Position numbers and translations under genes: made by a program. Positions 9,178 to 38,955 of a DNA stretch of 64,000 bases are shown one piece after another. Origin of the DNA: a virus; IMG/VR virus record IMGVR_UViG_3300021490_000001, positions 1 to 64,000 of that record. The stretch is one strand, 5' to 3'. Position 1 is the stretch's first letter. Each line of letters begins with the position of its first letter. The notes beneath the pieces were generated by a model. It saw only the letters and a list, made by a program, of their open reading frames with translations, ran no database searches and had not been told where the DNA came from.

Positions 9178-9236
9178 GAGGAAATCAAAGTTTGCGAAGG
9201 TAAATGAAAAAAAAGTAATGAAAACAGGTGGAATTG

Positions 9237-9800: not shown

Positions 9801-9838
9801 CACAAACAACAACACACTCGGAGTAATCTTCTTGGGCT

Positions 9839-9863: not shown

Positions 9864-9904
9864 ACTATTGAAAAAGACACAAAAAAAAGAAAAAGGCGAT
9901 GAAA

Positions 9905-10744: not shown

Positions 10745-10787
10745 AGGGAATGTTTAAAAAAAAGGCGATGAAAAAAAAGGTGATTGA

Positions 10788-11092: not shown

Positions 11093-11114
11093 TTAAGAAA
11101 TAGGAGGAATGACT

Positions 11115-11297: not shown

Positions 11298-11314
11298 ATA
11301 CACAAGCGATTAAA

Positions 11315-11674
11315 ATGGATTTTCTAGTGTATCTTGATTATGTCGATTTAGACCTACAACCCAAGCTAATTGATAAGGATGACAAGAATCGATATGCGCG
11401 AGCTTCTTTTCTGTCAATTGATAAAGTTTTTAAGGTAAAGAAGTCTTTATATTTGTTTGAAATTAACGAAAAAATTGTCATAATCGATACTGCCAGTATG
11501 AAAGCACACTGTTCCTGTATGGATTTTGCTAGCAGACGACATAGTAAAAATCGATACTGCAAGCATATTTATCGTGCAGTAAGATGGTTAGTTGAGTCAA
11601 AAGATAAATCCATTAAGATAACTTCAAATCAATTTGTTATTGAAAGATTCTCTAATCTCAAATTCCTTCGTTAG
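11315..11674 (+). CDS. SWIM zinc-finger protein (second copy)
   Basis: 119 residues. CSC at residues 67-69, then after about 14 residues CKH: the CxCx(n)CxH SWIM pattern, inside the segment KAHCSCMDFASRRHSKNRYCKHIYRAVRWLV. Homologous in layout to 3781-4035 but longer at the N-terminus. Start at 11315 has no clear SD. Possible recombination or transcription partner, unproven. Confidence 0.7.
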   Translation: MDFLVYLDYVDLDLQPKLIDKDDKNRYARASFLSIDKVFKVKKSLYLFEINEKIVIIDTASMKAHCSCMDFASRRHSKNRYCKHIYRAVRWLVESKDKSIKITSNQFVIERFSNLKFLR

Positions 11675-14346: not shown

Positions 14347-14629
14347 AGCTAGAGATACTAGAATGATATGTTCCGGAAGCTATTACTACTTTTGCCTGTA
14401 GAGTCCATGTTCCTGTTTGATCTAAATCTCCTGCAACTGAAGTACAATATATTTTACCATCGGTACCATCTGTTTCAAATATGCCAGATTTTGTAATAAT
14501 TGTTCCATCTGGCTTTTGAAATATTATTTCTTTTGTTGTTGCACCTGAGATATCTTCTGCTGTTGTTCCATTTTTTATAGTTAGCAAAAACTTTGTTCCT
14601 ATATCATTTAAATGTATTTCTTCTACCAT
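14321..14629 (-). CDS. Baseplate/fibre-associated Ig-like protein (BppU N-domain-like)
   Basis: 102 residues forming one beta-sandwich: HLNDIGTKFLLTIKNGTTAEDISGATTKEIIFQKPDGT, then a strand set ending GTWTLQAKV. This matches the N-terminal domain of phage BppU/DUF2479 baseplate proteins. It is the last gene of the late transcript and overlaps the preceding gene by 1 base. A virion structural role is inferred. Confidence 0.55.
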   Translation of the reverse strand: MVEEIHLNDIGTKFLLTIKNGTTAEDISGATTKEIIFQKPDGTIITKSGIFETDGTDGKIYCTSVAGDLDQTGTWTLQAKVVIASGTYHSSISSFKVYSNVS

Positions 14630-16404
14630 TATAATTCCACCTCAAATTCCTTTTGTTTGTCAATATATACTGTGATACTCCTTTCTTTATCGATATATAA
14701 AGTATATGAAACTACATCTATAGATTCCATTATCATAAAATTGGAAGTTTTGGTTATACTATTTGTTCCTTTGACTATGAAATCAGATGACTTTTGGATG
14801 CTATAAACTGCATTGATTATAAAATCGGATGTCTTTTCTATTACTCTTGATGCGTTAATATAAATATCAGAAGTCTTATTGATATTTCGTGTTCCCTTTA
14901 TGGTTAAATCTGAATTTAGTGAAAGGTCAAATGCACCCTTTATAACAAAATCAGAGTTTAGATCTAATGATTGAATCGCATTGATCACAAATTCTGAAAA
15001 TTTATATGTGCTTTGTGTTCCTTTGATTACTAAATCAGAAGTTCTTGTTGTGCTTACAGCTCCTTTGATTACGAAATCTGAATTTTTTGTTATATCGAAT
15101 GTGTCCTGTATTATCAAGTCACTTGTTTTAGTTATCGATAATGTGCCTTTGATTGTAAAATCAGAGTTTTTGTAAACTGTATATTCTGCTTCTATTATGA
15201 AGTTTGAGGTCTTATTTAAGGAGTTCGTTCCTTTTATAGTTAAATCTGAATTTTTAGTAAGCTGAATGGTATCCTTAATTGAAAAGTCGGAAGTCTTAGA
15301 TATATCAAATGTATCAACTATGAAAAAGTCGCTTGTTTTTGATACATCCTGTGTTCCTTTAATTACAAAACTTGAAAATTTGTAAGTTGATAATGTTCCT
15401 TTTATTACTAAATCGCTTGATATTGACTTATTATTTGATGCTTCTTTAATTACAAAATTAGAAGTCTTGTCTATACTGAAAGTATCTGCAATTGTAAAAT
15501 CACTTGTCTTTGTTGTTTCTAATGTTCCTTTAATTACCAATTCGGAATATTTGAAGGTGCTTTGTGTTCCTTTAATTACAAGATCTGAAGTTTTTGATGT
15601 AGATAATGTTCCTTTGATTACTAAATCCGAATCTTTCTGTATTGTGTAGACTTCGTTAATTACTAAATTGCTTGTCTTTGTTGTTGTTAATGCTCCCTTG
15701 ATTGTAAAGTCTGAATTCTTATAAACTGTATATTCTGCTTCTATTATGAAATTTGAAGTTTTAGATAAAGATTGCGTACCTTTGATTATGAAGTCCGAAT
15801 TCTTGGATACCTGTAATGTATCCTTGATTGATAAATCTGATGTTTTATTAATACTAAAAGTGTCTGCGATTGTAAAATCACTTGTCTTTGATGTGCTTTG
15901 TGTTCCTTTGATTACAAAATTTGAAAATCTATAAGTACTATTTGTTCCTTTAATTACTATGTCTGAATTCTTTGTGGTTTGAAATGTATCGGTTATTATA
16001 AAATCAGATGTTTTAGAAGTGCTTACTGTTCCTTTTATTGATATATCTGAGTTCTTAGTAACTTGTAAACTTCCTTTTATTACTAAATCAGCATTTTTGG
16101 TTAAATCGAATGTATCTTTAATTGTAAAATTACTGGTCTTTGAAGTGCTTAATGTTCCCTTGACTACTAAATCAGAAGTCTTTGAAGTGCTATTTGTTCC
16201 CTTGATTGTAAAATCTGATGTCTTGGAGAACTGAAATGTTACGATTTGAATTCCAGGAAATTTTATTTCTGAACCACTTTCGCTTGAACTTTGGATTACT
16301 GTATAAGGTTCTCCATTATTCCAATATTTTAATTCAACTAAATTATCGTCAGGTATTATTGGCTGTCCATTTAACCAAAACTTTAATGTGCCATCAAGCG
16401 CCAT
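14629..16404 (-). CDS. Repetitive fibre protein (about 30 copies of a 17-18-residue repeat)
   Basis: 591 residues from ATG 16404 (GTGATAAAT upstream; GTG 16413 is an alternative). After a 50-residue head (DGTLKFWLNGQPIIPDD..), nearly the whole protein is a repeat of the type KTSDFTIKGT-x-S-T-S. Alternating polar and Ile/Val residues predict a long beta-solenoid or triple-stranded fibre. About 60 C-terminal residues are non-repetitive. Its position next to other fibre genes suggests a tail fibre. I know no named family for this repeat. Confidence 0.6.
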   Translation of the reverse strand: MALDGTLKFWLNGQPIIPDDNLVELKYWNNGEPYTVIQSSSESGSEIKFPGIQIVTFQFSKTSDFTIKGTNSTSKTSDLVVKGTLSTSKTSNFTIKDTFDLTKNADLVIKGSLQVTKNSDISIKGTVSTSKTSDFIITDTFQTTKNSDIVIKGTNSTYRFSNFVIKGTQSTSKTSDFTIADTFSINKTSDLSIKDTLQVSKNSDFIIKGTQSLSKTSNFIIEAEYTVYKNSDFTIKGALTTTKTSNLVINEVYTIQKDSDLVIKGTLSTSKTSDLVIKGTQSTFKYSELVIKGTLETTKTSDFTIADTFSIDKTSNFVIKEASNNKSISSDLVIKGTLSTYKFSSFVIKGTQDVSKTSDFFIVDTFDISKTSDFSIKDTIQLTKNSDLTIKGTNSLNKTSNFIIEAEYTVYKNSDFTIKGTLSITKTSDLIIQDTFDITKNSDFVIKGAVSTTRTSDLVIKGTQSTYKFSEFVINAIQSLDLNSDFVIKGAFDLSLNSDLTIKGTRNINKTSDIYINASRVIEKTSDFIINAVYSIQKSSDFIVKGTNSITKTSNFMIMESIDVVSYTLYIDKERSITVYIDKQKEFEVEL

Positions 16405-16409
16405 ATTTA

Positions 16410-18101
16410 TCACGCAGTACTTAAGTCATCAACAAATATATTACCTGCTATGCTTCTGCATTTTATTCTTAATTCAAGAACTCCATCTTCTGTGATATCT
16501 GTTGATGATGCAGTAAGACTTTTCTGCTCATAAGTATCTGGTACACTTGGAGTTATTTCAGTCCATCCTGTAATTCTTTCACCCATGAAATAAATTGCTC
16601 CTTGAACATCTCCATTACCAAATGAAGTATCTTTTTTAATATAAGCAGACAGTGTTTGTTCAACTCCACTATCTGCTTTAAAAAAGAAAGACTGGCTGAT
16701 ATAATATGTTGCTGATGTAGGACTATATTTAAGGCATTGTGTGCTTCTTGCATTTGCTGTATCTCTATAAGTTACTCCATATTCGTAATAGCATCTATTG
16801 TCGCCTGATGTTTTGAAGTGCTGACATTTAGCGCAAGGATAATCTCCATAATGTTTTCCTGGTTCTGTATAAACATCTCCGCTTGAATTTCCTGTTCCTG
16901 AATATTTATTGATGGTGTTGTTGGAACTGGAATATAACCGAATGCCATAGTTACTATTGTTATTACAAGTTGGAGTAGTTATGGTATTGTTGTCGGAATA
17001 GTTAGACATGTAAATACCGTTTTGATTGATATTACAAGTCGGAGTGGTTATGGTATTATTGGAAGAGTAAGACATGTAAATGCCGTAGTTGCTATTACTA
17101 TTACAAGTCGAAGTAGTGATAGTATTATTGGAAGTGTAAGCCATGTAAATGCCGCAGAAGCTGTTGTTATTACAAGTCGGAGTAGTGATGGTATTATTGG
17201 AACCGGAATTTAAGTAAATACCGTATTTGTTGCTATTACAAGTCGGAGTGGTTATAGTATTATTGAAAGCGGAATATATGTAAATACCGTGGTTGCTGTT
17301 ACTATTACAAATCGGAGTGGTTATGGTATTATTGGAACCGGAATAAAAGTAAATGCCTATATCCGCACTGCTATTAACAACAGGCGTTATTATTTCATTA
17401 CTTAAACAACTACTTAAATACCATGCTTCATCACCAGCACTTAACAAACTAGCAGAAGTAACTTTCCAATTATCACAAGATGACATATAAATACAATTAT
17501 CATATCTTAAGAAATGCAAACGCTCTATTTCAATATAATCTTTACTGCTTGCATATAATCCACGGCCATATCGATTAGCAAAAGTAGAGTGCATTTGCCT
17601 AAAATAGGTTTGTCCATTTTGCGTTGTAGTTCCTAAATCCCATCCGCCTGATATTTTTAATCTGCTTGCAGTTGAGCTTCCTGAAGAGGAAACTGTTTGA
17701 ACTGCTGTTGAAGTTGCTGCTGCTTCTCCTGTGCTTGTTACTCCTAATTTATAGCCAGTAACTCCTGATTCTGTCGTACCTGGATATTTCTTATATAGAA
17801 CAGCATTTGTATTATCTGTAATTGTTACAATTTCATAATATTGACCATCACCGCCTTTGACAAAATCACCAATAGCTAATTCGGTAGTGAATAGCGTCCC
17901 TGAACCTGTTACTGCTGTGCTACCAGCTGTAAATCCTAAAGTCCCTGTTAAGGCTGTATCAGATGGACTTTTGGCAACTCTGACTTCATCACCACCCGTA
18001 AGACCAGTTGATGCTTGTGTAATGGTCTTGTATGGATTTCCTGACGAACCATCGCCTGTAGAGTCATCACCATTTGTAAAATCACAGTAAACAATTGTCA
18101 T
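16410..18101 (-). CDS. Beta-helix tail-fibre/spike-like protein (NosD-type repeats)
   Basis: 563 residues. The N-terminus, YCDFTNGDDSTGDGSSGNPYKTI, is typical of right-handed beta-helix virion proteins. Residues about 230-400 hold eight copies of a 23-residue NNTITTPTCNSNSNYGIY repeat (NosD/CASH type). The C-terminal 100 residues look like a carbohydrate-binding beta-sandwich. No signal peptide, unlike the 18377 protein, so a virion spike binding host surface glycan is the best guess. Confidence 0.65.
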   Translation of the reverse strand: MTIVYCDFTNGDDSTGDGSSGNPYKTITQASTGLTGGDEVRVAKSPSDTALTGTLGFTAGSTAVTGSGTLFTTELAIGDFVKGGDGQYYEIVTITDNTNAVLYKKYPGTTESGVTGYKLGVTSTGEAAATSTAVQTVSSSGSSTASRLKISGGWDLGTTTQNGQTYFRQMHSTFANRYGRGLYASSKDYIEIERLHFLRYDNCIYMSSCDNWKVTSASLLSAGDEAWYLSSCLSNEIITPVVNSSADIGIYFYSGSNNTITTPICNSNSNHGIYIYSAFNNTITTPTCNSNKYGIYLNSGSNNTITTPTCNNNSFCGIYMAYTSNNTITTSTCNSNSNYGIYMSYSSNNTITTPTCNINQNGIYMSNYSDNNTITTPTCNNNSNYGIRLYSSSNNTINKYSGTGNSSGDVYTEPGKHYGDYPCAKCQHFKTSGDNRCYYEYGVTYRDTANARSTQCLKYSPTSATYYISQSFFFKADSGVEQTLSAYIKKDTSFGNGDVQGAIYFMGERITGWTEITPSVPDTYEQKSLTASSTDITEDGVLELRIKCRSIAGNIFVDDLSTA

Positions 18102-18106
18102 CTATA

Positions 18107-18358
18107 TCACTCCGTAGTTTCTTCATCTACCGTAATTTCCTTGTTTATCTTAGATTTTAGTACTAAGTATCCTGCTTCCAAATCATTGATTCGCTTTATT
18201 TCATTTTTTACTGTTTGGTCAAAGTTATTGTTAATATCGACCATGTGAACAAATGGATATCTTTTTGTAAACGACTTTTTGCCATTAAAGAACTCTACAT
18301 CTACAATTAGTTCATCTTCTTGTTTTTCTACATTAGCAATTTTAGCTTTGTATTTCAT
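18107..18358 (-). CDS. Hypothetical protein in fibre cluster
   Basis: 83 residues with RBS GAGGTAATAAC before ATG. Beta-rich first half (KIANVEKQEDELIVDVEF), helical second half. Five bases before the spike gene. Possibly a small fibre-attachment protein; not recognised. Confidence 0.5.
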   Translation of the reverse strand: MKYKAKIANVEKQEDELIVDVEFFNGKKSFTKRYPFVHMVDINNNFDQTVKNEIKRINDLEAGYLVLKSKINKEITVDEETTE

Positions 18359-18376
18359 GTTATTACCTCTCTTTAT

Positions 18377-21300
18377 TTATATTGAATTTATGGTTAGTCC
18401 ATAATCGAAACCACCCATTGTGAAAACAGACGAGTTATATCCCCGTTTACACCATACTTGAAATGATCCACCTGGAGCTACTGTGCTTCCTATGTTTTGA
18501 AAAGTCTGTGTTAAATTAATATGAGAAGTATAGGCATTATTATCTGCACAGCTATCTACAATATTTTGATATGCAAGAGATGTATTCATTTGCACTTGTC
18601 CTGTGGCAGAACCATTGTTTGTGCAATTAATAAGTGGAATGCTATTTGTTTGACCTGATGCGTTTACCCAGAGCCAATTTGAATTTGTTGGTGGGTTATC
18701 TAAATCAATCAATGGCCTATATACTATTTGACTAATACCTGAGCCTAATGAACAATCTAGATCTGGTATGCCATTATCTATTGTAAAATTCTCATTGAGT
18801 AAATTAGAAGAACATCTGCTTGTAGTATCGCAATTTGTAAGATTTAATTTATAAATTCCATCATCTACAAGACTTGTATCAAAAGAGACATTAATCTCTA
18901 ACCCACCATCTGAAAAACTTCCATTTATTGTGTAATTGAAAGTTCCGTCAGTATTTCTAAGAGTTAAGTTTCCCGTTACTACATCTCCATTTGCATCTTT
19001 TCCTAAAAGACAGCCAATATCTATTGTAGAACTATAAGTTCCATTTTTGTTCTTATCACCATTAATATGAATTATTTGTGGTTTTCCAGGAGCATACTGA
19101 ATAACTCCAATTTCGTCTGTAGTAACTGAACTCCAACCACAATTTGAAAGATTATCGCAAGCATATATTTTATAAGTAATTTCATCTATATTATTATGAA
19201 TCTCTGAAAGCCAAACAACACCAGTTCCGCTATGTTGTGTAAATGTAGCTCCATCATCTGAACTTGTGTATAGCATTCCTGAAGTGTTCATACTAATATT
19301 TCCTATTAATGTTGTATCATCTGAATATTTTAAATCCCAATTTTTAACAGCATTTGCAGTTGTTACAAAACCAAAATAACTTATTTCTGTAGCTTTTACA
19401 GTTCCTATTGTTTCGTTTTCATCTATATAGAAATTTAGTTCATAGTAACTTACATTGCTCCTTGTGTAACTGTAACTATCTGTGGTTTCGATATTCCCAA
19501 GATAAACACAATTTGTAGAGTCTGAAATGCTGAGTCCATCTGTTTTTTTCGTTTCATTGCAATAATAAATTAATGAGTCTTTGTTTGAATTCGTTCCATC
19601 GATATAAAATAATACTTGCATAGTTGAATTAGATTCAATATCTCTATAATGGATTTCTGTTATTGCGGGATTATTATTATAATAACTTAGAGTATCTATT
19701 CCCATAGATTCTAATGTTGTTTTATCTAATGGAAAAAATTGATGGAACAAGCCTCTAACATCTGGTTTAGTGAAATTATAAACTTTCCAACCTGAACCAT
19801 TACTTGAACAAGTCAGATGCCCACAGGAACAATCATGCACGCTCCATTCCCAAATGTTATCAAACAAACTTTCAAACCATTTACTTTCATTCCTGTGTTC
19901 TGCTCTTTGTTCGTTATATGCTCCTCCTGCTTTGGTATTTGAAGGAAATCTCCATGAGAAGTTAAGATTGTTTTCTGTCGTATGATTGACAGTAGTGGCT
20001 ATTAATATGCTGGAATCATTAAGTCCATCTGTATCGGAACAATTGTATAAAATAGTTATTGAACCTGTACTGGAAGTGTTTATATCTGCAGGACTCTGAG
20101 AAATGAAGGTACAATTTGGTGGTAGATTTGGAACATATTCATCACTTAATGGAAGCCAGTCAATGTTTCCATTTGTTAAGTTATAATAATCATCACAGAA
20201 TCCATCAGTATTTGAATCAGTGCAAGTATCTGAATAATCATTTCCTGTTGAATTTGTCCAGTAGTTTCCACCGATTTGTGTTCCAATACTATATATTCTG
20301 GTTCCTGTTTGTTTTGTCGTGTTCCAATTGTTTGCATAAACTGTTCCAAACTTAACATTATCCGTCTGATTGAAAAGATTATTGTAAATGAGATTTACTT
20401 CTCCATTTCCTGCACCATTCATGTAAAGACCGTAAGTATTGGAATAGATTCTATTATCGTATATTGTGTTATTCGTGGCTGTTGTATCGAGTTGAATACC
20501 ATAATAGTTTGAATGTATTGTGTTATTGTAAATAAGATTATCATCGTCACTAATAAAAAGCCCGACATCAGAAGTGCCACTTTGTGAATATATTGTGGAT
20601 TCTTTTATTGTGTTTAAGTTTCCGTTTATATAAATACCGTCATCAGTATTTGAATTAGCGATTATGTTTGTAAATGTGTTTGAATTTGAATAATAACTGT
20701 AAATACCATTATAATTATTTGAATTAGCGATTACATTTGTAAATGTATTTGAATCTGAATAAGTACCATAAAAACCATAATTATTAGAATTAGCACTTAT
20801 ATTTGTAAATGTGTTTGAATCTGAATTATAACTATAAAAACCATAAGTATTTGAATTAGCTGTAATGTTTGTAAATGTGTTTGAATTTGAATTATAACTA
20901 TAAATACCATCATCGGTATTTGAATTAGCAGTTATATTTGTAACTGTATTTGAAACAGAATAATAACTGTAGATACCCCATTCCATATCGGTAAATTGTG
21001 AATTAGATATATTTGCTCCTTGTGTCGCAATTAAAAAGAACCCGTTGTTTTCTGTTCCTGTTCTATCCATAACTAAATTAGATACATTTGAATTATCAGC
21101 ACCGCATAAGATTATTTCAGACACATTATTAGTCCAATCCTGAATATTTACAGATGAATTATAAAACAATATTGGCTTTTCTTCTGTTCCTATAACATTA
21201 ACAAATTCTGAATTACAATCAAGTGCAGTTCGTGTGGTTACATAGTAAAAATCAGCTAATACATTGTCTTTTATAGTAATATTTGTAAATGTGTTTGAAT

Positions 21301-22867
21301 CTGAAATATAACTGTAAATACCATAATTATTTGAATTAGCTGTAATGTTTGCAAATATATTTGAATCTGAATAATAAATGTAAAAACCATAATTATTTGA
21401 ATTAGCAGTTATATTTGTAACTGTATTTGAATCTGAATAAGAACATGAAATACCAAAAGTATTTGAATTAGCAGTTAGATTTGTAACTGTATTTGAATCT
21501 GAATAATAAGTATAAATACCATTATCAGGATTTGAATTCACTGTATTATTAGTCAAATTATTTCCATCAGCGTAATATAAATAAATTCCATTAGTGTCCC
21601 AATCACTAACAACACAATTCTTAATAGTCACATTCGTGGTTTCAGCAGATGCTCTCTTGACATAAATCCCATAATCTGCTACATCATCACCGTCAATAGT
21701 AAATCCTGCACAATCGAGAGTTACATCATTTGCACTGATGTTTATGCAGTAGCTTGTAGAAGAACCTGTAATGCTTTGGTTCATGGTATATGTTCCTGCT
21801 TGGTCTAATACCATACAGCCAGAAACAATCGGATCTATCTCAATGTCAAGAATTGTTATGTTGAACTTATCTGTTGCCCACATAGGATAATCAAATTCAT
21901 AAGTTATAGTATGGTTTCCTTTAGTTAGTGATTTCATTTTTTTCAATGTGATTTCCTTGGTGGTACCTTTATTATTAACAATATCAGGAATCTTATCGTT
22001 TAACTTACTAAGATGTTTGTCTAATGTTACAACTTTCTTTGTAAATGGTCTCTTTTTGAAAGCCAGACCTGGATTCAAATCTTGTACTTTTGCAGGAGTA
22101 TCAGACTTGTATTCGATATCAACAGCTAACGAACAATGAACTGTGTTATTTTCTCTAGCAACGCAATGTGCACTATTGGGTACCTTTAATGAATATTTGT
22201 CTGATTCATACTTCCAATAATTCGTAGTTATATATTGCGAAACATTAGTTATCTCATGTGTTTCACTTGATTCGTTTATCGCCTCTATATAGCCCGCAAA
22301 TACTTCTTCAGTTACAAATGTTAATCCTGCTTTCCATATAGGGTCAATATCTACATAATCATCTAACATAAAAGACCACTTGATTGTATCTTCTGGTTTT
22401 TTATGGCCTACTAATTGTATTTTATTAACCTTTTTTCGTTCCCAACAATCTCCATCTTTAATGGGCCTGTATTTATTGCCATAAGTAGGTACATTCCAAT
22501 CTACTTGAATGTCATAAGGAACCCAAGAACCATTATCAAGAAGTTTCTGTGTTGTTATGATATTATCTATCTTATTCAAATTTACATGAAGTGTTCTGCT
22601 TCTGGCTACCTTTTTAAATAAAGTTTCGTTTTCATATTTGGTATTGTTATAATCAGCAAAACACACACGCCAATAAGAAGTGGTTACATTAATATAAGAA
22701 TTACATTCAGAACCGCAGGTTATGTCACCAGTGTAATTATAAGTTACACCCTTAAGATTAAAAAGAACTCCAAATAAATCTGTATAGGTCATTAATCCAC
22801 CAGATGCCACAATTACAACTAATACTGTTGCTGCTTGCTGCCAGGTAAATTTGTTCATTTCAATCAT
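18377..22867 (-). CDS. Giant membrane-anchored or secreted beta-helix protein (NosD/CASH repeats)
   Basis: 1496 residues. A hydrophobic segment at about 9-30 (AATVLVVIVASGGLMTYTDL) acts as signal anchor. Next comes a beta-sandwich region to about 350 with KKRPFTKKVV-type strands, then two runs of right-handed beta-helix repeats (SDSNTFTNITANSNNYGIY) separated by a linker, and Ig-like modules to the end. There are very many N-x-S/T sequons, as in archaeal secreted glycoproteins. It lies in the late operon, overlapping its upstream neighbour. Either a virion spike exported before assembly or a protein placed on the infected cell surface. Confidence 0.65.
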   Translation of the reverse strand: MIEMNKFTWQQAATVLVVIVASGGLMTYTDLFGVLFNLKGVTYNYTGDITCGSECNSYINVTTSYWRVCFADYNNTKYENETLFKKVARSRTLHVNLNKIDNIITTQKLLDNGSWVPYDIQVDWNVPTYGNKYRPIKDGDCWERKKVNKIQLVGHKKPEDTIKWSFMLDDYVDIDPIWKAGLTFVTEEVFAGYIEAINESSETHEITNVSQYITTNYWKYESDKYSLKVPNSAHCVARENNTVHCSLAVDIEYKSDTPAKVQDLNPGLAFKKRPFTKKVVTLDKHLSKLNDKIPDIVNNKGTTKEITLKKMKSLTKGNHTITYEFDYPMWATDKFNITILDIEIDPIVSGCMVLDQAGTYTMNQSITGSSTSYCINISANDVTLDCAGFTIDGDDVADYGIYVKRASAETTNVTIKNCVVSDWDTNGIYLYYADGNNLTNNTVNSNPDNGIYTYYSDSNTVTNLTANSNTFGISCSYSDSNTVTNITANSNNYGFYIYYSDSNIFANITANSNNYGIYSYISDSNTFTNITIKDNVLADFYYVTTRTALDCNSEFVNVIGTEEKPILFYNSSVNIQDWTNNVSEIILCGADNSNVSNLVMDRTGTENNGFFLIATQGANISNSQFTDMEWGIYSYYSVSNTVTNITANSNTDDGIYSYNSNSNTFTNITANSNTYGFYSYNSDSNTFTNISANSNNYGFYGTYSDSNTFTNVIANSNNYNGIYSYYSNSNTFTNIIANSNTDDGIYINGNLNTIKESTIYSQSGTSDVGLFISDDDNLIYNNTIHSNYYGIQLDTTATNNTIYDNRIYSNTYGLYMNGAGNGEVNLIYNNLFNQTDNVKFGTVYANNWNTTKQTGTRIYSIGTQIGGNYWTNSTGNDYSDTCTDSNTDGFCDDYYNLTNGNIDWLPLSDEYVPNLPPNCTFISQSPADINTSSTGSITILYNCSDTDGLNDSSILIATTVNHTTENNLNFSWRFPSNTKAGGAYNEQRAEHRNESKWFESLFDNIWEWSVHDCSCGHLTCSSNGSGWKVYNFTKPDVRGLFHQFFPLDKTTLESMGIDTLSYYNNNPAITEIHYRDIESNSTMQVLFYIDGTNSNKDSLIYYCNETKKTDGLSISDSTNCVYLGNIETTDSYSYTRSNVSYYELNFYIDENETIGTVKATEISYFGFVTTANAVKNWDLKYSDDTTLIGNISMNTSGMLYTSSDDGATFTQHSGTGVVWLSEIHNNIDEITYKIYACDNLSNCGWSSVTTDEIGVIQYAPGKPQIIHINGDKNKNGTYSSTIDIGCLLGKDANGDVVTGNLTLRNTDGTFNYTINGSFSDGGLEINVSFDTSLVDDGIYKLNLTNCDTTSRCSSNLLNENFTIDNGIPDLDCSLGSGISQIVYRPLIDLDNPPTNSNWLWVNASGQTNSIPLINCTNNGSATGQVQMNTSLAYQNIVDSCADNNAYTSHINLTQTFQNIGSTVAPGGSFQVWCKRGYNSSVFTMGGFDYGLTINSI

Positions 22868-29981: not shown

Positions 29982-30878
29982 CTAGATGCCTGTTAATGTG
30001 CATACTGCATCTGGTCTTACAACTGCTATGCCGACTCTTTCGAATGCCTGAACTTTTGTAGTGTGTTTATCTTGGTCATCGAACATGTTGATCGATACGG
30101 GCATTGCTTCGCCTACTTGGTATGCTCCACCTGGTCCTCTCTTTAGGATTATAGCTGTATCTTCTGTGACTTCTGTGCATTCGATAATCTTAAGTCCCAT
30201 GAAGAAAGGTAGTACTCCTGTGCTTACAGTTTTCTCAGTTAGACCATTCCATAGATTTTGGGAAACGATTGTGGTTAGTTCTTCTGCATTTGTTGGGTTA
30301 AGAAGAAGTGTGTCCGCTTCGTATCCTTTGTTTTTGATTAGTCTCTTTGCCCTGCGTATGTTTTGCACGGGATCAGCTGTTGTAGAGCTCCATACACCTT
30401 TTGGATTAGCGTAAGTACTTCCTGCATCTGCAATCAATCGTGTAACGATTACACTGTCTTCTTTCTTTATGACTTTGGTTACAGCTTGTTTAGACTGAGC
30501 AGCCCTAATTGCTAGTTTTGATAGGTGGTCTGCTTCCCATGTTAGCTGGAATCCTTTACCATATTTCTTGATGTTCACTACGCTTTCTGTTGCATCTGCA
30601 TCGTCATATACGAAGTCTGCTCCTTCGCCTACCTCTGTTGCATCGCCTAGATCAGAAAAAGGGTAAAAGTAATATTTGGTAGCTCCCTGATCTTTTAGTT
30701 TTTCGACCATACAATATTGTCGAAGTCGTGCTATGTCTTCTAGTTTTTCAATCGCTGCATCTCTGATTACTTCTGAAACCTTTCGCGGAATCGAATCAGT
30801 AGTTACAGTGAAGGAAAAGTCCTTTCTCTTAAGAGAGAAGCTTTTTTTCTCTGGAGTTGTATCTGTCATTTCATTCAC
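29982..30878 (-). CDS. Major capsid protein, HK97 fold
   Basis: 298 residues. FTVTTDSIPRKVSEVIRDAAIEKL begins the N-arm. A central part with DATESVVNIKKYGKGFQLTWEADHLS and a helical spine (VIKKEDSVIVTRLIADA) follows. Next are NIRRAKRLIKNKGYEADTLLLNP and a C-terminal AFERVGIAVVRPDAVCTL (P-domain/beta strands). This order is that of encapsulin-like and HK97-type capsid proteins. Context is decisive: portal, protease, scaffold, decoration, then this gene. No separate N-terminal delta domain; the scaffold is the separate 31306 gene. Confidence 0.85.
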   Translation of the reverse strand: MNEMTDTTPEKKSFSLKRKDFSFTVTTDSIPRKVSEVIRDAAIEKLEDIARLRQYCMVEKLKDQGATKYYFYPFSDLGDATEVGEGADFVYDDADATESVVNIKKYGKGFQLTWEADHLSKLAIRAAQSKQAVTKVIKKEDSVIVTRLIADAGSTYANPKGVWSSTTADPVQNIRRAKRLIKNKGYEADTLLLNPTNAEELTTIVSQNLWNGLTEKTVSTGVLPFFMGLKIIECTEVTEDTAIILKRGPGGAYQVGEAMPVSINMFDDQDKHTTKVQAFERVGIAVVRPDAVCTLTGI

Positions 30879-30880
30879 CT

Positions 30881-31306
30881 CTACTGAAGCCTCAAGTCAA
30901 TTACTGCAGTTGTATCTGTAGTAGTTGCTGGTATAACAACGGGTCCAAGATAGTCACCGCGTATTCCTATTCCTGCAAATGTGGTTCCATAGGTTGCAGC
31001 TACTGTTGCTAAGCTTGCTGTTGTGGCAGATAGGATCATCCTTGCTCCAGCAGTTGTTGCAGCACCATCTGCGGTTACGGTTACTTTAGCTAACCCAGAA
31101 GTCTGGACAGTTAGTTCTGCCGATTCTGCTGTCGAAGTTGTGTCCTTGCCCACTACGACTACACCAATTACTGAACCGGATACGCTTTCACCGACTGTTC
31201 CTGTTCCATTGTCTGCTAAACCGGAGCTGTATATCACTATACTTCCTGGAGTTATAGCAGATGTCGTTGAAGCGGAAGTTATTGTTATATTAGATGGTAG
31301 GGACAT
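30881..31306 (-). CDS. Capsid decoration protein (DUF2190-like)
   Basis: 141 residues of Thr/Ala/Gly-rich beta barrel (SGSVIGVVVVGKDTTST.., AELTVQTSGLAKVTVTADG), as in phage lambda gpD/DUF2190-type head decoration or stabilisation proteins found just before the major capsid gene. Stop-start overlap with the scaffold gene. Confidence 0.6.
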   Translation of the reverse strand: MSLPSNITITSASTTSAITPGSIVIYSSGLADNGTGTVGESVSGSVIGVVVVGKDTTSTAESAELTVQTSGLAKVTVTADGAATTAGARMILSATTASLATVAATYGTTFAGIGIRGDYLGPVVIPATTTDTTAVIDLRLQ

Positions 31307-31935
31307 TAGTCATCACCCTCCGTTAGTTCTTTAAGTTCTTTTTTAAGATCGTCTGCCTTGAGACCAGCACTTTCTCTTGTTGATATTCTGGACTTTAGGT
31401 CTTTGATCTTAGACTCGATTTCTCCGGTTTTAGCTTTTTTGAGTTCTTTTCCTTTCAATGATGCTTTTCCGTCCTCAGTTTCCTCAATGGCTTCAACTCT
31501 AGACTGAAGTGCATTAATTGCAGTAAGGTCTAGTTTCTGATACTCTTTTGCCATGTCGGTAGCTTTTTCCTTAGAATAGAGTTCTTTTTTTAGTTCGAGG
31601 TTTACGAGCTTGTTTATTTCTGCAGCTTTTTCTTTCTGCTCGTATTCACTGACTTTCTTAGAAAGTTCAGTTTTTTCTTCGACTAGGGAATCAACCTTTT
31701 CCTTTAGTTCTTTGATTTCATCCTCGTTTTCTTTTTCTTTTTCATCTTTTTTTGGTTTGGGATATCCTTCAGGATATGGGTATTCTTCTTTTTTCTTTTT
31801 CTTTGCCAAGCCCTCAATAAGAGCTGCTAGGTCTTTTTCGATTTTTGCCAGCCTGTCTTCTACGCTAGCAGAATCACTTCTAGGAGAATCTCCATCAGTG
31901 ATCACATCATCGAATAGATCGTTTACGTTTGTCAT
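31306..31935 (-). CDS. Capsid scaffold protein
   Basis: 209 residues, highly charged. Acidic N-terminus, Pro/Lys/Tyr segment (EEYPYPEGYPKPKKDEKEK), then a long Lys/Glu coiled coil. No globular motif. The position between the protease and the decoration/capsid genes and the coiled-coil nature are those of phage scaffolds that the protease digests. Confidence 0.75.
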   Translation of the reverse strand: MTNVNDLFDDVITDGDSPRSDSASVEDRLAKIEKDLAALIEGLAKKKKKEEYPYPEGYPKPKKDEKEKENEDEIKELKEKVDSLVEEKTELSKKVSEYEQKEKAAEINKLVNLELKKELYSKEKATDMAKEYQKLDLTAINALQSRVEAIEETEDGKASLKGKELKKAKTGEIESKIKDLKSRISTRESAGLKADDLKKELKELTEGDD

Positions 31936-31999: not shown

Positions 32000-34900
32000 T
32001 TAGTACAGAATTGTGCATATGTCACAAGCTGGTTCCATGACTAATGCTGCATGTCCCCATCCTATAATCTTTATTGCTATTTCATTATTGGAATTGTCTT
32101 TGTAGGAATCTGTCCAGCAACGCATAGAGACGCCACGTATTTGTCTTGTGGCAAGCTGTTTATTTACTTCGCTGTTGGTTATCTTGAATTTTATTATCAT
32201 TGCTTTGAGATCATCGTCCCATCGAGAGCTAAGTATCTTGCCTACCTGATGGATTACATCATCCGAATGATCTCTTACTATATTAAGTCCATTTGGTTTT
32301 GGTGCATTCTTTACGACCTCCTCAGAATAAGTAATGCCATTCCATACTCCAGGAGCAAATCCTATTGCTTCCCATGTATCATTAGTTTCCTTGCTTAATT
32401 CTCTTATTGTAAAGGAATGGCTTTGCCATGCTGTAGTCTTAGGAGCATCTGTATCTTTTTTTAGAATCCAAGTTTTGTTTTGTCTTGTGGCTGTATATAT
32501 TCCTTTAAGTTTCCCTGAAGTAAACTTAATTTGTTTAAGATCAGATGTGTCTTTCAATATAGTTGCTGTTCCACTTGTAAGTTTTCGTATCCATGCTGGT
32601 GTATTCTTAGTCCGATTTTCTGGATGACCTGGCTTCAGTTCGCCTGAATATGTGAACATATCTATATTTTTATCATGTCTTAATATTCCTGCCACTGTGT
32701 TTGTATCTATTAGATTGTGCTGTAGGATAAAATGACTGTATGTGTCTTTGCCTGGTTCTTTTATCCTTAAGTCATACACTTGTTTTGATGGACCTTTTCT
32801 TATTACGACTGGCCCTTTCCAATATCTATGCTGAAGGACATATTTAGCAGAGTTAGCATAATTTAAGGCATTTGTATTTATCTCATTAGAGAATCCGAAA
32901 GTGTCATTATCATTCGCTAACATCGAAACAGATCTACCTTTTGTTAATCTCTCTATCCATGATTCCAAATGAGGTTCAAGCTTAATTGATTCCTCGCTGA
33001 AATTCGTAATTAAGAGATTAGGTATATTATATTTTACTGCATTTTGTAAATTGGTTTTTAGGCTAGCAGTTTTGGCTTCTTGCGTCACAACATTTCTTGC
33101 ATCTAGGATCAAGACATCTATGCCATTTCCTTTAAGTAATTCTTCATTTGAGTGATCTAATGCATAAGCGAATGAGCAAGGGCCTATATCTATTTTTAAT
33201 GCAGTCGCTTCTTTGCCAATTGCTTCTATCTTAACTCCTGTAAGTGTTAAATGTCTATCAAATACATGGATCTCATTAGGATAGTTTAATCTTTTGAGTT
33301 CCGCTTCCATTTCCTTAGTCCCATAAATTGGGATGTCTATTTTATTCTTAAGTGCCCCAATATGTTTTGGGCTTATTCCTGTAAGGATTATTGCATCGGG
33401 ATTGTCTTCTTTGAGTTTGCCTAAATAATCGATTCCTGCATTTATCCTAATTTTTATTTTATCTGTAGATAATAGCGCGCTTGTATTTAGTTTATGAGTT
33501 TTTGATTGCTTTCCTGAGCCTAAAGTACCATACCAGAAGATAGTAGCATTGGAGATATTATAGTCTATCAACATAGCTTTCTGTATAGGAAACGGTTGTT
33601 TCTTGATAGCATTAATCAGATCTAATCTTATTTGCTTTCTTTTACTTCGTTCATCATAATTCCAATACTGATATTGCTTTGGAATCTTAGATGCTAATTT
33701 CTTAGGGATCGCTTTTATTCCTTTCTCTGGCACATAGTCTTTGTTTATACTTCTTAGTGTAAGCATATAAGGAGGAGAATTAGAAGGAAAACCCATCCAT
33801 GTGAAATATCCTTCTGGTGTTTTTTTCCATTCGGATTTGTTCTCTAATTCTCTGAATGAGAACTTACCATTGAGTAACTTTCCATCGAAAAAGTATTCAT
33901 GATATTGGCTTTTTTGCGCTCCATACTGCACAGTGCCTTTATCTACTATTATAAACTGTCCTGCTTCCTTTTTTGTTGCGCCTATTTCACCTGGTTCAAC
34001 CCATCCTTCTGCAGTAAGCCATTCAATGGGTTCTACTTGTTTTAGCTTGCAGTTGAACTTAGTTAATGGATTGTGGAACTTGTCATCTACTATAGGTTTT
34101 ATTTCTTTATTGTACAATTCTTTAGCATCTTCGAAGGAAGTAGCATCTCTTGAGAATCCTTTGGGAACAAATAAAGTATATCCTATTAGGTGTTTGTCGC
34201 TAAATTGTATGCGAAGATCGAGATGTACGCTACGCCCACGTGCGTGTGCGTGTATTACATAATTATACGTTTTAGATTCATCTGGTATTTTAAGGTAGAC
34301 ATCAGAGTAATCGAGTTTCTCTTCTGTTTTTTCCAGATCGAAGAGTGAACGCGCTGATTTTGGCATTCTCTTCTTTTCTTCTGTTCCTGTTGTTTCTTGA
34401 ACTATTTCTTTTACTCGTTTGATAGAGAATGCATCTTCTTTTCCTCTATGTCTTATGACTCTTGGACTCCACCAGTTGAACCATAGTTTTCCTTTATCAT
34501 CATATTGTGATATTTCTACTACTATTACTTCTATTGTTTCTCCTTCTTTTGCGTCTATATTTGTATTAAATGTTCTGCCTATGTATGCTTCATCTTTAGG
34601 AGAACCAACAACACAGTCGTAGAAGAATGTATTTTCTGTGCCAGCTACTTTATGTTTCTTTTTTATTCTGGCAAAGATCGAAACTTCATTTTTATATTTA
34701 AGGACTTTATCTGTCTTCCCATCAAAATCATAAATGTGTGAAGGCATCTTGATCATAGCTCCTTCGCTTCCTGGAAGTTTTGATTTCTTTTCTATTGCAT
34801 TCCTTACATCATCAAGATCTTTAGCTATAATAGGATCTGTGTGAAATATATTTTTTCCCTTAAACTTGTAGATATATTCCAATCTTATGGAGTATGGCTC

Positions 34901-37744
34901 TTTAACTAATTCTTTTCCATTGAAATAAAGCGTATCGTATACATGCGCTTGGAGATATTTCTCATCTGGTGATACTTCTTTTGAATGAATAATGCCTGAC
35001 GTGACTGCCCTTGGCTGATGTTTTCCATCTTTATATAATTCTATTTCAAATTCCGCTTCAAAGTCACCGTTTATTTTAAGGAACTGCTCCTTTAGGGTAG
35101 GAACCTTATTGGTAATAATATTTCCTTCATCTGACCATATATTTATTTTTTCATTAATTTTATGGACTTGGGCTCTTATGCCATCATATTTCTTTTCTAT
35201 GTATAATCCATTTTCTTCTAATTCTTTTTCCCATTCTGGTTTGGATTTGATTACATTGATTACACTCAAAGGAGTATATATCTCTTCTTTTGATCGCCCA
35301 TGAGTTGGCTTAGGCATTGTATGGAATTTTCCTAACTTGAAACCTGGGTGGGATAAATTTTTTGGACTGACTAATTCCCATTGGATTCCGATACTACCTA
35401 GACATTCCATTGTGTAATCTGTTAGATCAGAAGCTATGAGTAGGCTTACGGAATTTTCATCCAATAGCTTAAGGACATCTTCACGTATATTAGAGGTTAT
35501 TTCTTGTTTGGTTCCATCAGGGCATACCAGAAATTTAGCAGTAGCAAAAGATGCAAGATTACCTGCCTTATCGATTAACTGCCACTTTGCCTCTGTATTA
35601 TCGACCAGGCTCATTTCATGTAATCTATGGTCTGTATTTGGAACAAGTTCTAAATCCCAAATTGGGTAATGATTAGTAAATGGGCCATGAAGTGTATCAT
35701 ACAAAAAATGCACTCTTGGTCTTAATTTTTCAGGAAGTGCACGTAAGATTCTGAATTTAAGTGCTCTGTCTTCATTTGGGTTTTCAGGTTCCTCTTTTTT
35801 AATAAGTATGTCTATATCGCCTGTTGTACCTTCTTTCTCATGGGTTGCAACGCCACCAACTATATATACATACGGTTCAGCTAATTTAATATTACCTTGG
35901 AAATGTGGCAAAATATCCTTGATAAATATTCGTTCTCCATCTACTTTGCCAGATGGATTTACCCGCACATAACGGAAGTTAGTTAAGTCTCTTGTTCGTT
36001 TATGTAATGCAATGATTTTATTATAAAATTGTCTGGAATATTTTTTCATTTTATTAGAGTGAAATTTTGTTCCTCTTCTTGTGAGTTCTTTGTATACTTT
36101 AAGTCCTATGTCTGTTAATTCTTTTAGTGAATATTTTGTCTTCTGGCCTTTTAGTGCATTTACATATTCGTTTGATAGGAATCTCCAATCATCTTTTAGT
36201 TGTACTGTTTTTCTTGATTTTGGAGTATAATCGGATATGTTTTTTGTATATTGTAGATTCTTTTCTCTTATGAATGGCAGAATCGAATCTTCTGGCTTCA
36301 TTGTTCCAAGATATTTTAGTGTGGCATCATCGAGTGCATCTTGATAGTGGTGCGTGAAATGTCTCCTTTCAAATTCCTTAGTTATTCTATAATGTGCGTT
36401 TACTAGATCAGCCATCTCTTTTCCGCTTGTTATACCATGCCTTAGATAGTTTCCAAAAGCAACATGGAGTTTGAAATGAGTTCCAATTACTTGAGAATCT
36501 GTATATCCTTCAAGCAATTTTGTAGTTATGCTTGGCGTCTTGATTAAATCCTGTTCAAGATGAGCATCAAGAGAGTCTATCTTATTGATTTTTATTTTAT
36601 GATCTAAATAAGGAACAATTTTATTATGAGTTGATATTATTTGCTCCATAGTCCAAGAAGCGACATGTTTCCCTTCGCTGAATTTTCTTGCCATTCTGTG
36701 TAAGTTATAATGCACTTCATATAATGAGTCCTCATTCATTAAAGACGGTTCTGTTAAATTTTTCATTAAGTAACGTGGGAATATTAGCTTATACCATTTC
36801 TTAGAGTCTTCTTTTTTGTATGTTGAAGAGGTATCCTTTAGAACAAATCCTTCAATGGACTTATTCTCTGTGGCTTTAATTATGTCCTTAAAATTCTCAT
36901 AGGATTTTATGGTGAGATATTTTACTTTTGAAATGTATTTTTTATCGCTTACCTTTTCAAGTTTCATTTTTCGCTCATATAATAACTCTTCTGTATGATA
37001 AGTTCCGTTTGTATTTAGTATGTCAAATACCTTTACCCTTAATGATTTATCTGGTGTCGTTATGTCTTTGTTTGAAATTATCGAATATACATCTTTTCCT
37101 GTATCTGAGATTAGTTCTCCATCGAGGATTAATATGTCATAGTTTAATTGCTTTACTTCATCTAAAATGTGCTGAATTTTATTATTTGGAATTCTATTTC
37201 CAAAAAAAGTATATGCAGAAACTTTGTTTAGGTCCTTGTGTATTTGTATTCTTATTCCATCTTCTTTCTTTTCAAGAATAAGATTAGCGAAATCTAAGTC
37301 TTTCATGTCTTCATAGCAGAAGAATTCGTTTGATATGTTGTTTATCTTATCCTTAAATGGCTTAATGGGCTGAACAAATTCTATATTCGTGCTTGTAAAG
37401 TTATTGAATGCAGGAATGTCAGCATAAAAACCTTTCTCTAAGTTGGCGTTTATTTTCACCGGTGCAGAGAACTTGAAGATAGATTTGATTGCATATTGAT
37501 AAAAGATCTTGGTCTTTTGCCTGAATTCCTTTTTAAGATTATATGTATAAATTGCTTGTTGTAATTTGCATTCTTTAGGGGTGCTTAGTGAGAGTATAGC
37601 TAAAGCATGTTTATTTTTTACAAATACTAAGTCTTTGTTTATGGCTTTTCGAGAATATATTTTGGAAATAATCTCTTCTTTACCATTCAATCGATTTTGT
37701 ACAAGTTGAAAAACTGTGTTGTCTATTCCTATCATAATTTTCAC
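32000..37744 (-). CDS. Giant fusion: two DNA ligases, Pol-beta NTase, two LigD-PE-like domains, MBL fold and prohead protease
   Basis: 1914 residues. Ligase 1, about 140-400: KEDGIR (Lys160), LDGE (207-210), EGFVLK (298-303), KWYKL. Helical region 400-600. Nucleotidyltransferase 620-720: GG 630-631, GDID (Asp643, Asp645), Asp697. Ligase 2, 820-1105: EKKYDGIR (Lys852), EAEFEIEL, SEGAMIK, KVLKYK and an OB end with WWSPRVIRHR. Phosphoesterase-like 1, 1159-1330: HAHARGRSVHLDLR. MBL fold 1400-1595 without its metal residues (TGISPKHIG for THxHxDH). Phosphoesterase-like 2, 1632-1765: LQHRYWKGPVVIRKGPS, YDLRI. Capsid protease 1770-1914: DHSDD (His1826), QVGKI, RGVSM (Ser1873), XkdF/S78-like. It sits between portal and scaffold, overlapping the portal stop by 4 bases. 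Probably processed in the prohead; processing and activity are inferred. Confidence 0.85.
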   Translation of the reverse strand: MKIMIGIDNTVFQLVQNRLNGKEEIISKIYSRKAINKDLVFVKNKHALAILSLSTPKECKLQQAIYTYNLKKEFRQKTKIFYQYAIKSIFKFSAPVKINANLEKGFYADIPAFNNFTSTNIEFVQPIKPFKDKINNISNEFFCYEDMKDLDFANLILEKKEDGIRIQIHKDLNKVSAYTFFGNRIPNNKIQHILDEVKQLNYDILILDGELISDTGKDVYSIISNKDITTPDKSLRVKVFDILNTNGTYHTEELLYERKMKLEKVSDKKYISKVKYLTIKSYENFKDIIKATENKSIEGFVLKDTSSTYKKEDSKKWYKLIFPRYLMKNLTEPSLMNEDSLYEVHYNLHRMARKFSEGKHVASWTMEQIISTHNKIVPYLDHKIKINKIDSLDAHLEQDLIKTPSITTKLLEGYTDSQVIGTHFKLHVAFGNYLRHGITSGKEMADLVNAHYRITKEFERRHFTHHYQDALDDATLKYLGTMKPEDSILPFIREKNLQYTKNISDYTPKSRKTVQLKDDWRFLSNEYVNALKGQKTKYSLKELTDIGLKVYKELTRRGTKFHSNKMKKYSRQFYNKIIALHKRTRDLTNFRYVRVNPSGKVDGERIFIKDILPHFQGNIKLAEPYVYIVGGVATHEKEGTTGDIDILIKKEEPENPNEDRALKFRILRALPEKLRPRVHFLYDTLHGPFTNHYPIWDLELVPNTDHRLHEMSLVDNTEAKWQLIDKAGNLASFATAKFLVCPDGTKQEITSNIREDVLKLLDENSVSLLIASDLTDYTMECLGSIGIQWELVSPKNLSHPGFKLGKFHTMPKPTHGRSKEEIYTPLSVINVIKSKPEWEKELEENGLYIEKKYDGIRAQVHKINEKINIWSDEGNIITNKVPTLKEQFLKINGDFEAEFEIELYKDGKHQPRAVTSGIIHSKEVSPDEKYLQAHVYDTLYFNGKELVKEPYSIRLEYIYKFKGKNIFHTDPIIAKDLDDVRNAIEKKSKLPGSEGAMIKMPSHIYDFDGKTDKVLKYKNEVSIFARIKKKHKVAGTENTFFYDCVVGSPKDEAYIGRTFNTNIDAKEGETIEVIVVEISQYDDKGKLWFNWWSPRVIRHRGKEDAFSIKRVKEIVQETTGTEEKKRMPKSARSLFDLEKTEEKLDYSDVYLKIPDESKTYNYVIHAHARGRSVHLDLRIQFSDKHLIGYTLFVPKGFSRDATSFEDAKELYNKEIKPIVDDKFHNPLTKFNCKLKQVEPIEWLTAEGWVEPGEIGATKKEAGQFIIVDKGTVQYGAQKSQYHEYFFDGKLLNGKFSFRELENKSEWKKTPEGYFTWMGFPSNSPPYMLTLRSINKDYVPEKGIKAIPKKLASKIPKQYQYWNYDERSKRKQIRLDLINAIKKQPFPIQKAMLIDYNISNATIFWYGTLGSGKQSKTHKLNTSALLSTDKIKIRINAGIDYLGKLKEDNPDAIILTGISPKHIGALKNKIDIPIYGTKEMEAELKRLNYPNEIHVFDRHLTLTGVKIEAIGKEATALKIDIGPCSFAYALDHSNEELLKGNGIDVLILDARNVVTQEAKTASLKTNLQNAVKYNIPNLLITNFSEESIKLEPHLESWIERLTKGRSVSMLANDNDTFGFSNEINTNALNYANSAKYVLQHRYWKGPVVIRKGPSKQVYDLRIKEPGKDTYSHFILQHNLIDTNTVAGILRHDKNIDMFTYSGELKPGHPENRTKNTPAWIRKLTSGTATILKDTSDLKQIKFTSGKLKGIYTATRQNKTWILKKDTDAPKTTAWQSHSFTIRELSKETNDTWEAIGFAPGVWNGITYSEEVVKNAPKPNGLNIVRDHSDDVIHQVGKILSSRWDDDLKAMIIKFKITNSEVNKQLATRQIRGVSMRCWTDSYKDNSNNEIAIKIIGWGHAALVMEPACDICTILY

Positions 37745-38955
37745 ACATTTGTATCTTCTATAGCCAAGGCTTTTTTTACTGCCTTTGATCCTTCTTCTCT
37801 TGTTATTAGACCTGCTCTGACTGCTTCTGTTAAGTAGCTGATTTTATAGTTGTTTATTTCTGCTCTTTCTTTTTCGTTGTCAATCGAGAGTGTATTCCAC
37901 CCTAGATCTGGTATATTGAATAATCCTCTTCTTATACAGGCATTAGTGAATATTTGAAGCTCTATGCTTGATGAAACAGTCTGCTGAAGCTGGACTATTT
38001 CTTTTTCTGACTGTTTGATCAAAAATTCGAGAGAGCTTCTATTGAGATTTTTACCTTTAGGTAATAGTGTTTCTTTTGGAACTCTTAGGCAACCGGAAAT
38101 AGAATCAAGTATGTTCTCAAAAATAGGAGTGAAATCAGGGAAGTTCTTCTTTTCACCTATTAGTTTTATCTCTAGGTTATCTGTTGATGAGATAATAGAG
38201 GTTCGCTTAAAATTTTTAAGATCTTTATGTAAGTCTTCTAAGTCTTTTTCTTCTGCTTCTTTTAGTGTTCCATGAAGAGAAGGATTAGAGTACTTGTCTA
38301 TGGCTTCATCTGAGGATTTTTCTGCTGATCGTTTTGAGTATAGTCTATGTAACATTGGTTCTATTAGTCCTATACCATGTATGTTATCCTCAATTGACCA
38401 GAATTTTAAGTGCATTACTTGGTCTGGTCTTAGGATTATCGTTTTACTTTGGTACTTATTTATGGTTTGTTCATATCGAATTATTTTTCCTTTTTTGTCC
38501 CATTTGGGTTCTATCGTATCTGGATTGATATACGCTGTATCTACTATATTATTTCCTGCCCAGATCAATTCTAGATAACCATCTCCATAACCTAATGCAT
38601 CCCCTATTGTTTTTCTAAGATTTGGCTTAAATGTTTTGCTTGTGATTATCTTAGTGCAGATTTCAGACTCTTTTGTAAATGCTGGTCCTGGAACGGTAAA
38701 AAAGCCTGTTCCAAGTATAGCCTGAACTAGTAGATTTATTCCTGTAAATACCATTGGATCCTTGTATCTGTAATACTGAAGATCTTCAAATGGAGCTCGA
38801 TTATAGCTACTAGTTAAAAGATAGCTATTGAAATCTTCTGTATTTTCGCCCATAGAAACATAAGTTCTCTTTTTAGGCAATGGCCTGGGCTTAAATCTAT
38901 TAAACATAATATTGACTTTTTTTGATATATCCCTGTTTAGAGAACTGAGCTTCAT
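37741..38955 (-). CDS. Portal protein
   Basis: 404 residues, the usual size of HK97-family portals. Includes DPMVFTGINLLVQAILGTGF, DALGYGDGYLELIW, AYINPDTIEPKWD, LRPDQVMHLKFWSIED and HGIGLIEPMLHRLYSKRSAEKSSDEAIDKYSNP (stem/wing helix), then IISSTDNLEIKLIG and CLRVPKETLLPKG. It forms the dodecameric DNA channel at one capsid vertex. It overlaps the giant protease fusion by 4 bases. Confidence 0.85.
   Translation of the reverse strand: MKLSSLNRDISKKVNIMFNRFKPRPLPKKRTYVSMGENTEDFNSYLLTSSYNRAPFEDLQYYRYKDPMVFTGINLLVQAILGTGFFTVPGPAFTKESEICTKIITSKTFKPNLRKTIGDALGYGDGYLELIWAGNNIVDTAYINPDTIEPKWDKKGKIIRYEQTINKYQSKTIILRPDQVMHLKFWSIEDNIHGIGLIEPMLHRLYSKRSAEKSSDEAIDKYSNPSLHGTLKEAEEKDLEDLHKDLKNFKRTSIISSTDNLEIKLIGEKKNFPDFTPIFENILDSISGCLRVPKETLLPKGKNLNRSSLEFLIKQSEKEIVQLQQTVSSSIELQIFTNACIRRGLFNIPDLGWNTLSIDNEKERAEINNYKISYLTEAVRAGLITREEGSKAVKKALAIEDTNV

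Follow-up and report, generated by a model that had tools for sequence, protein, structure and literature searches.

The window, a 64-kb stretch of a 72-kb virus record, carries on its minus strand a single open frame of 1,914 codons (32000-37744) with no internal stop, as had been stated in an earlier note made from the sequence. The frame lies among virion genes: its GTG start shares 4 nt with the stop codon of the portal gene upstream, a scaffold-like coiled-coil protein, a small decoration-type protein (called from its position) and the major capsid protein (MCP) are encoded downstream, and the large terminase is found elsewhere in the same record (L003:5545-6975). This gene order agrees with the placement between portal and scaffold that the earlier note had given. 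Pfam, family profiles and predicted folds together place at least two unrelated functional domains in the one chain, which we refer to as the polyprotein (Table 1). The virus is tailed and its host is likely archaeal, judging from related sequences: ANMV-1, the closest relative with an annotation, has an uncultured archaeon listed as its host, and a related contig, L017, belongs to a MAG labelled Euryarchaeota.

Table 1. Features of the polyprotein, its neighbours and related portals. E-values for LIG1, NT, LIG2, OB, PE1 and PE2 refer to the polyprotein alone as search space; the family profiles, with the exception of that for LIG1, were built including the window sequence.
Feature	Residues	Position	Strand	Basis or remark
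HK97-fold MCP		29982..30878	-	Pfam and PHROG matches
Scaffold-like coiled-coil protein, directly downstream of polyprotein		31306..31935	-	assigned from position and composition
Whole polyprotein gene	1,914 aa	32000..37744	-	GTG start
Prohead protease, assemblin/XkdF type (H1826, S1873)	1785-1914	32003..32392	-	iterative search, model
Low-confidence flexible linker, candidate processing site	1769-1780	32405..32440	-	AF2 model
PE2, second LigD-PE fold without catalytic motif	1633-1764	32453..32848	-	family profile 1e-51
Degenerate metallo-beta-lactamase (MBL) domain	1384-1630	32855..33595	-	iterative search, family alignment
PE1, LigD 3'-phosphoesterase fold	1157-1360	33665..34276	-	family profile 9e-89; AF2 model
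Ligase OB fold	1015-1130	34355..34702	-	family profile
LIG2, ATP-dependent DNA ligase nucleotidyltransferase domain	815-1014	34703..35302	-	family profile 2e-78
Segment without recognised relatives	713-814	35303..35608	-	no profile match for residues 713-805
NT, Pol-beta-like nucleotidyltransferase	600-712	35609..35947	-	family profile 1e-44
Helical repeat 3	499-580	36005..36250	-	iterative search
Helical repeat 2	412-477	36314..36511	-	iterative search
Helical repeat 1	326-400	36545..36769	-	iterative search
LIG1, ATP-dependent DNA ligase nucleotidyltransferase domain (K160)	131-317	36794..37354	-	family profile 2e-17
ASCH/PUA-like domain	13-107	37424..37708	-	jackhmmer E 6e-15
Portal protein, directly upstream of polyprotein		37741..38955	-	Portal_Mu 4e-12; PHROG portal
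Portals of relatives ending in ASCH-like domain		L021:500-2152, L023:7445-9259, L024:3838-5433, L025:2263-3852, L036:7472-9133

The amino-terminal domain is matched weakly by Pfam ASCH (best E 0.012). Behind it, the first ligase domain retains K160, the motif III Glu and the motif IV Glu-Gly, and no OB fold following it was detectable in the polyprotein with the family profiles. The three helical repeats are copies of one unit of about 65 residues. In the nucleotidyltransferase, the GDID triad read from the sequence earlier is borne out, with G630, D643 and D645 invariant in 30 of 30 sequences; Pfam ties the domain to Pol-beta weakly (E 0.014-0.022), and a sequence search of the PDB returned no match to it. 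Every domain named in the earlier note was recovered, but the ASCH-like domain and the helical repeats had been overlooked.

The two sets of ligase motifs noticed around Lys160 and Lys852 correspond to two matches of Pfam DNA_ligase_A_M (E 1e-40, compared with 2e-4 for the RNA-ligase match), with both lysines kept. The motif residues of LIG2 are nearly invariant across relatives (K852 in 45 of 46 sequences, E900 in 47 of 48 and E994 in 45 of 46), and K1016, in the first part of the OB match, is kept in all 46. The alignment of the ligase to PDB sequences extends across the ligase C-terminal domain, which supports the OB assignment. Like LigD, the polyprotein has a ligase nucleotidyltransferase domain with an OB fold and a catalytic Lys. 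A separate RNA-ligase gene is encoded in the same virus record (L003:704-1597, record 64704-65597, plus strand; PHROG 548, E 9e-31).

The earlier note had also described two LigD-phosphoesterase-like segments, and both folds were confirmed by comparison of the predicted structures with known ones, although the second is devoid of the catalytic motif. The PE1 profile found just three PDB sequences up to an E-value of 10, all of them LigD-type phosphoesterases at about 0.4 each, and the top six Foldseek matches of the PE1 AF2 model (pLDDT 92.9) were likewise LigD-type phosphoesterases (E 2e-7 to 3e-5), the next match standing at E 0.12. H1167, H1174, D1176 and R1178 are near-invariant in about 47 sequences and correspond to LigD H42, H48, D50 and R52, the first three forming the Mn triad. 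These are the first four members of the LigD catalytic set (H42, H48, D50, R52, H84, Y88); the H84 position is not conserved in PE1, and the Y88 position is occupied by W1242. Point mutants of LigD at H84 and at Y88 are inactive (PMC8656161). Because these two LigD-essential residues are missing, PE1 may be an altered enzyme. For PE2, the best profile match was 3p43 (E 0.002), and the first half of a model covering PE2 and the protease (pLDDT 88) matched LigD phosphoesterases. The segment between PE1 and PE2 belongs to the MBL family and, as had been noticed, lacks the metal ligands: the HxHPDH motif kept by most relatives in this family is lost, and Pfam returned no match to the window segment alone. 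The lack of an OB fold behind LIG1, together with the degenerate MBL domain, suggests that some parts of the polyprotein are binding modules or relics.

The C-terminal domain, proposed in the earlier note to be a prohead protease with His1826 and Ser1873, has the characteristics of such an enzyme: an assemblin fold, the invariant His and Ser, and a gene located between those of the portal and the scaffold and MCP. The second half of the PE2-protease model was matched by herpesvirus assemblin pUL26N (E 7e-3, probability 1.00), and in an alignment of 31 proteases, spanning window-like and XkdF-like kinds, H1826 and S1873 were the sole invariant positions. The domain thus resembles XkdF (Peptidase_S78_2) and the assemblin-type head proteases in position, fold and the two catalytic residues; unlike the former, it is not matched by PF14550, and the family link comes from iterative search and fold. 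PF14550 does match the C-terminal tails of the relatives L011 (1e-28) and L013/L028 (7e-14). Residues 1769-1780 are the sole run of at least three residues whose pLDDT falls below 50 in the PE2-protease model, and this predicted linker is a candidate site for cleavage by the protease. Profiles and folds together support the fusion of a capsid protease to DNA ligase and LigD-type phosphoesterase domains, as the earlier note had claimed.

The NT-LIG-OB-PE1-PE2 core is common to about 60 viral contigs and ANMV-1, the latter being the only match to the polyprotein in 50,697 phage records. Searches of viral contigs with the polyprotein alone or the ANMV-1 protein alone returned no close relatives; these were recovered only with an alignment of the two, in scans that yielded 13 and then 59 loci on partly overlapping contigs. 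Many relatives contain 300-1,100 additional residues or are split over two genes. The extra domains in 57 scanned segments included D12 adenine methyltransferases (12), MBL domains (11), inteins or LAGLIDADG sequences (7 to 9), segments resembling TGT, the queuine tRNA-ribosyltransferase (4), and C5 methyltransferases (2). Intein-like sequences break the MBL active-site motifs in L056 (inside HxHPDH; ORF 6677-11329) and in L053 (after THLG; ORF 6338-11422), a pattern seen in working enzymes. Inserts of 320-385 residues lie between domains in L060, L061, L064 and L068, several inserts in the family hold inteins or homing endonucleases, and in L015/L036 the ligase gene is interrupted within the ligase domain by about 2 kb (L036:10426-12547), possibly an intron or intein.

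We counted the linkage of the core to head genes in the 53 contigs with enough downstream sequence; the counts are of contigs, several of them near-identical, and not of independent events. The core is fused to the prohead protease in 13 contigs (in L034, PE2 only), so that the fusion sought in other viral contigs was found. A separate protease gene lies within 1.2 kb downstream in 33, the protease is further away in 6 and no protease gene is present in the stretch examined of 1. Fusion is not required, because the gap between core and protease is 21 kb in ANMV-1 and 2 to 8.4 kb in the five other distant cases. The MCP lies within 6 kb downstream of the core in 39 of 41 contigs. 'PROT' matches just behind the fused XkdF proteins were considered as second proteases, but they are probably scaffold coiled coils and were left out of the fusion count. 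The portal and the polyprotein also share a domain. The C-terminal 125 or so residues of the portals of L021, L023, L024, L025 and L036 are homologous to the ASCH-like domain of the polyprotein; the window portal lacks a tail of this kind, and the domain stands at the start of the window polyprotein. Across relatives it has been exchanged between the two proteins. This shared domain, and not noise, accounts for the matches of a portal HMM to many core proteins.

Comparison with known systems places the polyprotein closer to the polyvalent proteins with an assemblin tail than to LigD. Polyvalent proteins were defined by Iyer et al. (2017, J Bacteriol; PMC5512222), in whose main text the phage proteins are predicted to be packaged into virions, their assemblin-like peptidases are always C-terminal, and archaeal examples are scarce. 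The polyprotein shares with them a very long multi-enzyme chain encoded in the head operon of a terminase-portal virus, the C-terminal assemblin-like peptidase and a Pol-beta-type nucleotidyltransferase; Pfam found neither a zincin peptidase nor an ArdC-N domain in it. It differs from those described in the main text of PMC5512222, where a search of that text found no occurrence of 'DNA ligase', LigD or ASCH, in having a DNA ligase, a LigD-type phosphoesterase and an ASCH-like domain. Relative to that text, assemblin-tailed polyvalent proteins are known, and DNA ligase and LigD-type phosphoesterase as their passengers are new.

With LigD and the archaeal LigD-like phosphoesterases (3N9B, 3P43, 3P4H, 5DMP) the polyprotein has in common an ATP-dependent ligase, an OB fold and a phosphoesterase in one chain, as well as the fold and Mn-site motif of PE1. 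It differs from LigD at the H84 and Y88 positions of PE1, in its inactive-looking second phosphoesterase and in its terminal viral protease. No match to a LigD-type (AEP) polymerase was found in the polyprotein, the nucleotidyltransferase being Pol-beta-like, and Ku (PF02735) was absent from the window record and the records of 39 relatives, many of which are fragmentary. Some bacterial LigDs lack one or another domain. The 'complete DNA end-joining toolkit' of the earlier note is therefore too strong a description: no AEP polymerase was identified, no Ku was found in the 40 records, PE2 has no motif, PE1 is short of two catalytic residues and the MBL ligands are lost.

The 866-residue ANMV-1 protein AJP62006.1 (KP703175.1, annotated 'ATP-dependent DNA ligase') consists of the NT-LIG-OB-PE1-PE2 core, is 28-39% identical to the polyprotein over three matched stretches and is likewise encoded directly behind a portal gene. 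Unlike the polyprotein, it lacks LIG1, the helical repeats, the MBL domain and the protease, which has its own distant gene. The gene in front of it (KP703175.1 1913-3193), despite its annotation as a 'MutT-like phage hydrolase', encodes a portal by homology: its product matches that of L004, whose gene also precedes the core, at 46%, and iterative search links it to the window portal. We found nothing relevant in the open-access literature on an XkdF or head protease fused to a ligase or on ANMV-1 in connection with a ligase, nor is a core-protease fusion discussed in the ANME-1 virome paper. PaP1-like XkdF genes labelled 'DNA methyltransferase' were considered as a precedent for an enzyme-protease fusion and dropped, since the PaP1 gene encodes only 156 residues. 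This gene, gp048 (HQ832595.1 26524-26994), is annotated as an N6-adenine methyltransferase and is XkdF-like; the label, common to many Pakpunavirus records, was probably transferred.

We lean, with somewhat better than even confidence, toward the view that the polyprotein is a polyvalent protein, a multi-enzyme virion cargo that its protease steers into the prohead and sets free to act on viral DNA; that it is encapsidated, cleaved and ejected, and which DNA it acts on, we infer. The protease would enter the procapsid with portal and scaffold, pulling the attached enzymes in, and would then cleave the scaffold and itself, the latter near residues 1769-1780. This would release the N-terminal DNA-handling part (the ASCH-like domain, the ligases, the helical repeats, the nucleotidyltransferase and the phosphoesterase), which could remain close to the portal or bound to packaged DNA and enter the cell alongside the genome. 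Once delivered, the enzymes would mend breaks and nicks in the viral genome or seal its ends, most likely after ejection, and a ligase that arrives preloaded as enzyme-AMP would need no ATP to seal one nick. We favor this view because the core is fused to a prohead protease in 13 of the 53 contigs and lies within 1.2 kb upstream of one in 33 more, because the MCP is close downstream in 39 of 41, because the protease has the assemblin fold and invariant His and Ser, and because the ligase residues (48 sequences) and the H-H-D-R set of PE1 are near-invariant. The exchange of the ASCH-like domain with the portal argues in the same direction, as do the D12 and C5 methyltransferases of relatives, which likewise act on DNA, the inteins and homing endonucleases in inserts and MBL motifs, and the published accounts of assemblin-like peptidases at the C-termini of polyvalent proteins and of predicted packaging for the phage ones (PMC5512222, main text). 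Counting against it are the distance of the core from the protease in ANMV-1 and five other contigs, the two residues missing from PE1 and the absence of Ku from the 40 records. Genes with unrelated roles also tend to gather in late operons.

The head-operon position, the protease linkage and the domain common to portal and polyprotein would also suit enzymes that act while DNA is being packaged, either within the prohead or at the portal, fixing nicks and unligatable ends so that stalling of the motor is avoided, with no delivery to the next host; the methyltransferases in relatives could mark DNA while it is packaged. We regard this as unlikely, since the precedents for packaged and ejected enzymes are better (T4 Alt, P1 Dar and N4 RNA polymerase, reviewed in the main text of PMC5512222) and the long, changeable passenger lists resemble an arms race and not a fixed assembly step. 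It is quite doubtful that the late-made polyprotein works in the cytoplasm of the producer cell, the protease cutting it before joining the head and the fusion serving only to fix stoichiometry. This would leave unexplained why the partner is almost always a prohead protease and why a domain is swapped with the portal, although enzymes and protease are indeed separate genes in many relatives, including the 33 contigs with a nearby protease gene and ANMV-1.

A role in counter-defence, in which proteins or RNA are the targets modified by the nucleotidyltransferase and the ligase and phosphoesterase heal ends cut by host restriction or defence nucleases, seems to us improbable. The main text of PMC5512222 classes the Pol-beta nucleotidyltransferases of polyvalent proteins with protein-modifying domains, and methyltransferase passengers are compatible with anti-restriction; however, the ligases are far closer to DNA than to RNA ligases, and the virus has its own separate RNA-ligase gene. 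That genes were joined in error, or motifs over-read, has a negligible probability in view of the stop-free frame, the presence of the core in ANMV-1 and about 60 contigs, the fusion type in 13 and the confirmed folds. Misassembly of 32000-37744 in particular appears very unlikely from the contig comparisons because independent contigs share the core and the same type of fusion. Wrong folds and the lack of any relative, two of the three outcomes that the earlier note had set against its own reading, were looked for, and neither came true.

Returning to the cargo view, the roughly 50 contigs in which the enzymes are fused to or beside the protease suggest, at the level of sequence, that these viruses pack their particles with a DNA-repair kit. 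More tentatively, and with less than even confidence, we propose that the particles of a widespread class of tailed viruses, none of whose members in the phage collection searched is cultured, contain a Ku-independent machine for healing and joining DNA ends, steered in by protease fusion or linkage, that would mend the genome before viral genes are expressed. If so, viruses would bring along repair enzymes as protein cargo, which would directly answer how a long linear genome survives ejection into nuclease-rich hosts; polyvalent proteins would extend to probable archaeal viruses, and DNA ligase and LigD-type phosphoesterase would join their passenger list. The question has become testable, with the modules delimited, the catalytic residues named and virion fragments predicted by the fusion.

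Other genes of the window include one for an Amidoligase_2 protein, which also has a LIM-like match, and after it one for a class-II glutamine amidotransferase (192-2506, plus strand), possibly a pair for peptide or nucleotide modification. Large NosD/beta-helix proteins (1,496 and 563 residues) and a tail-fibre-like protein (14629-22867, minus strand) likely form a receptor-binding module, and a 281-residue protein (9899-10744, plus strand) consists nearly entirely of WG repeats (PF14903, E 1e-101).
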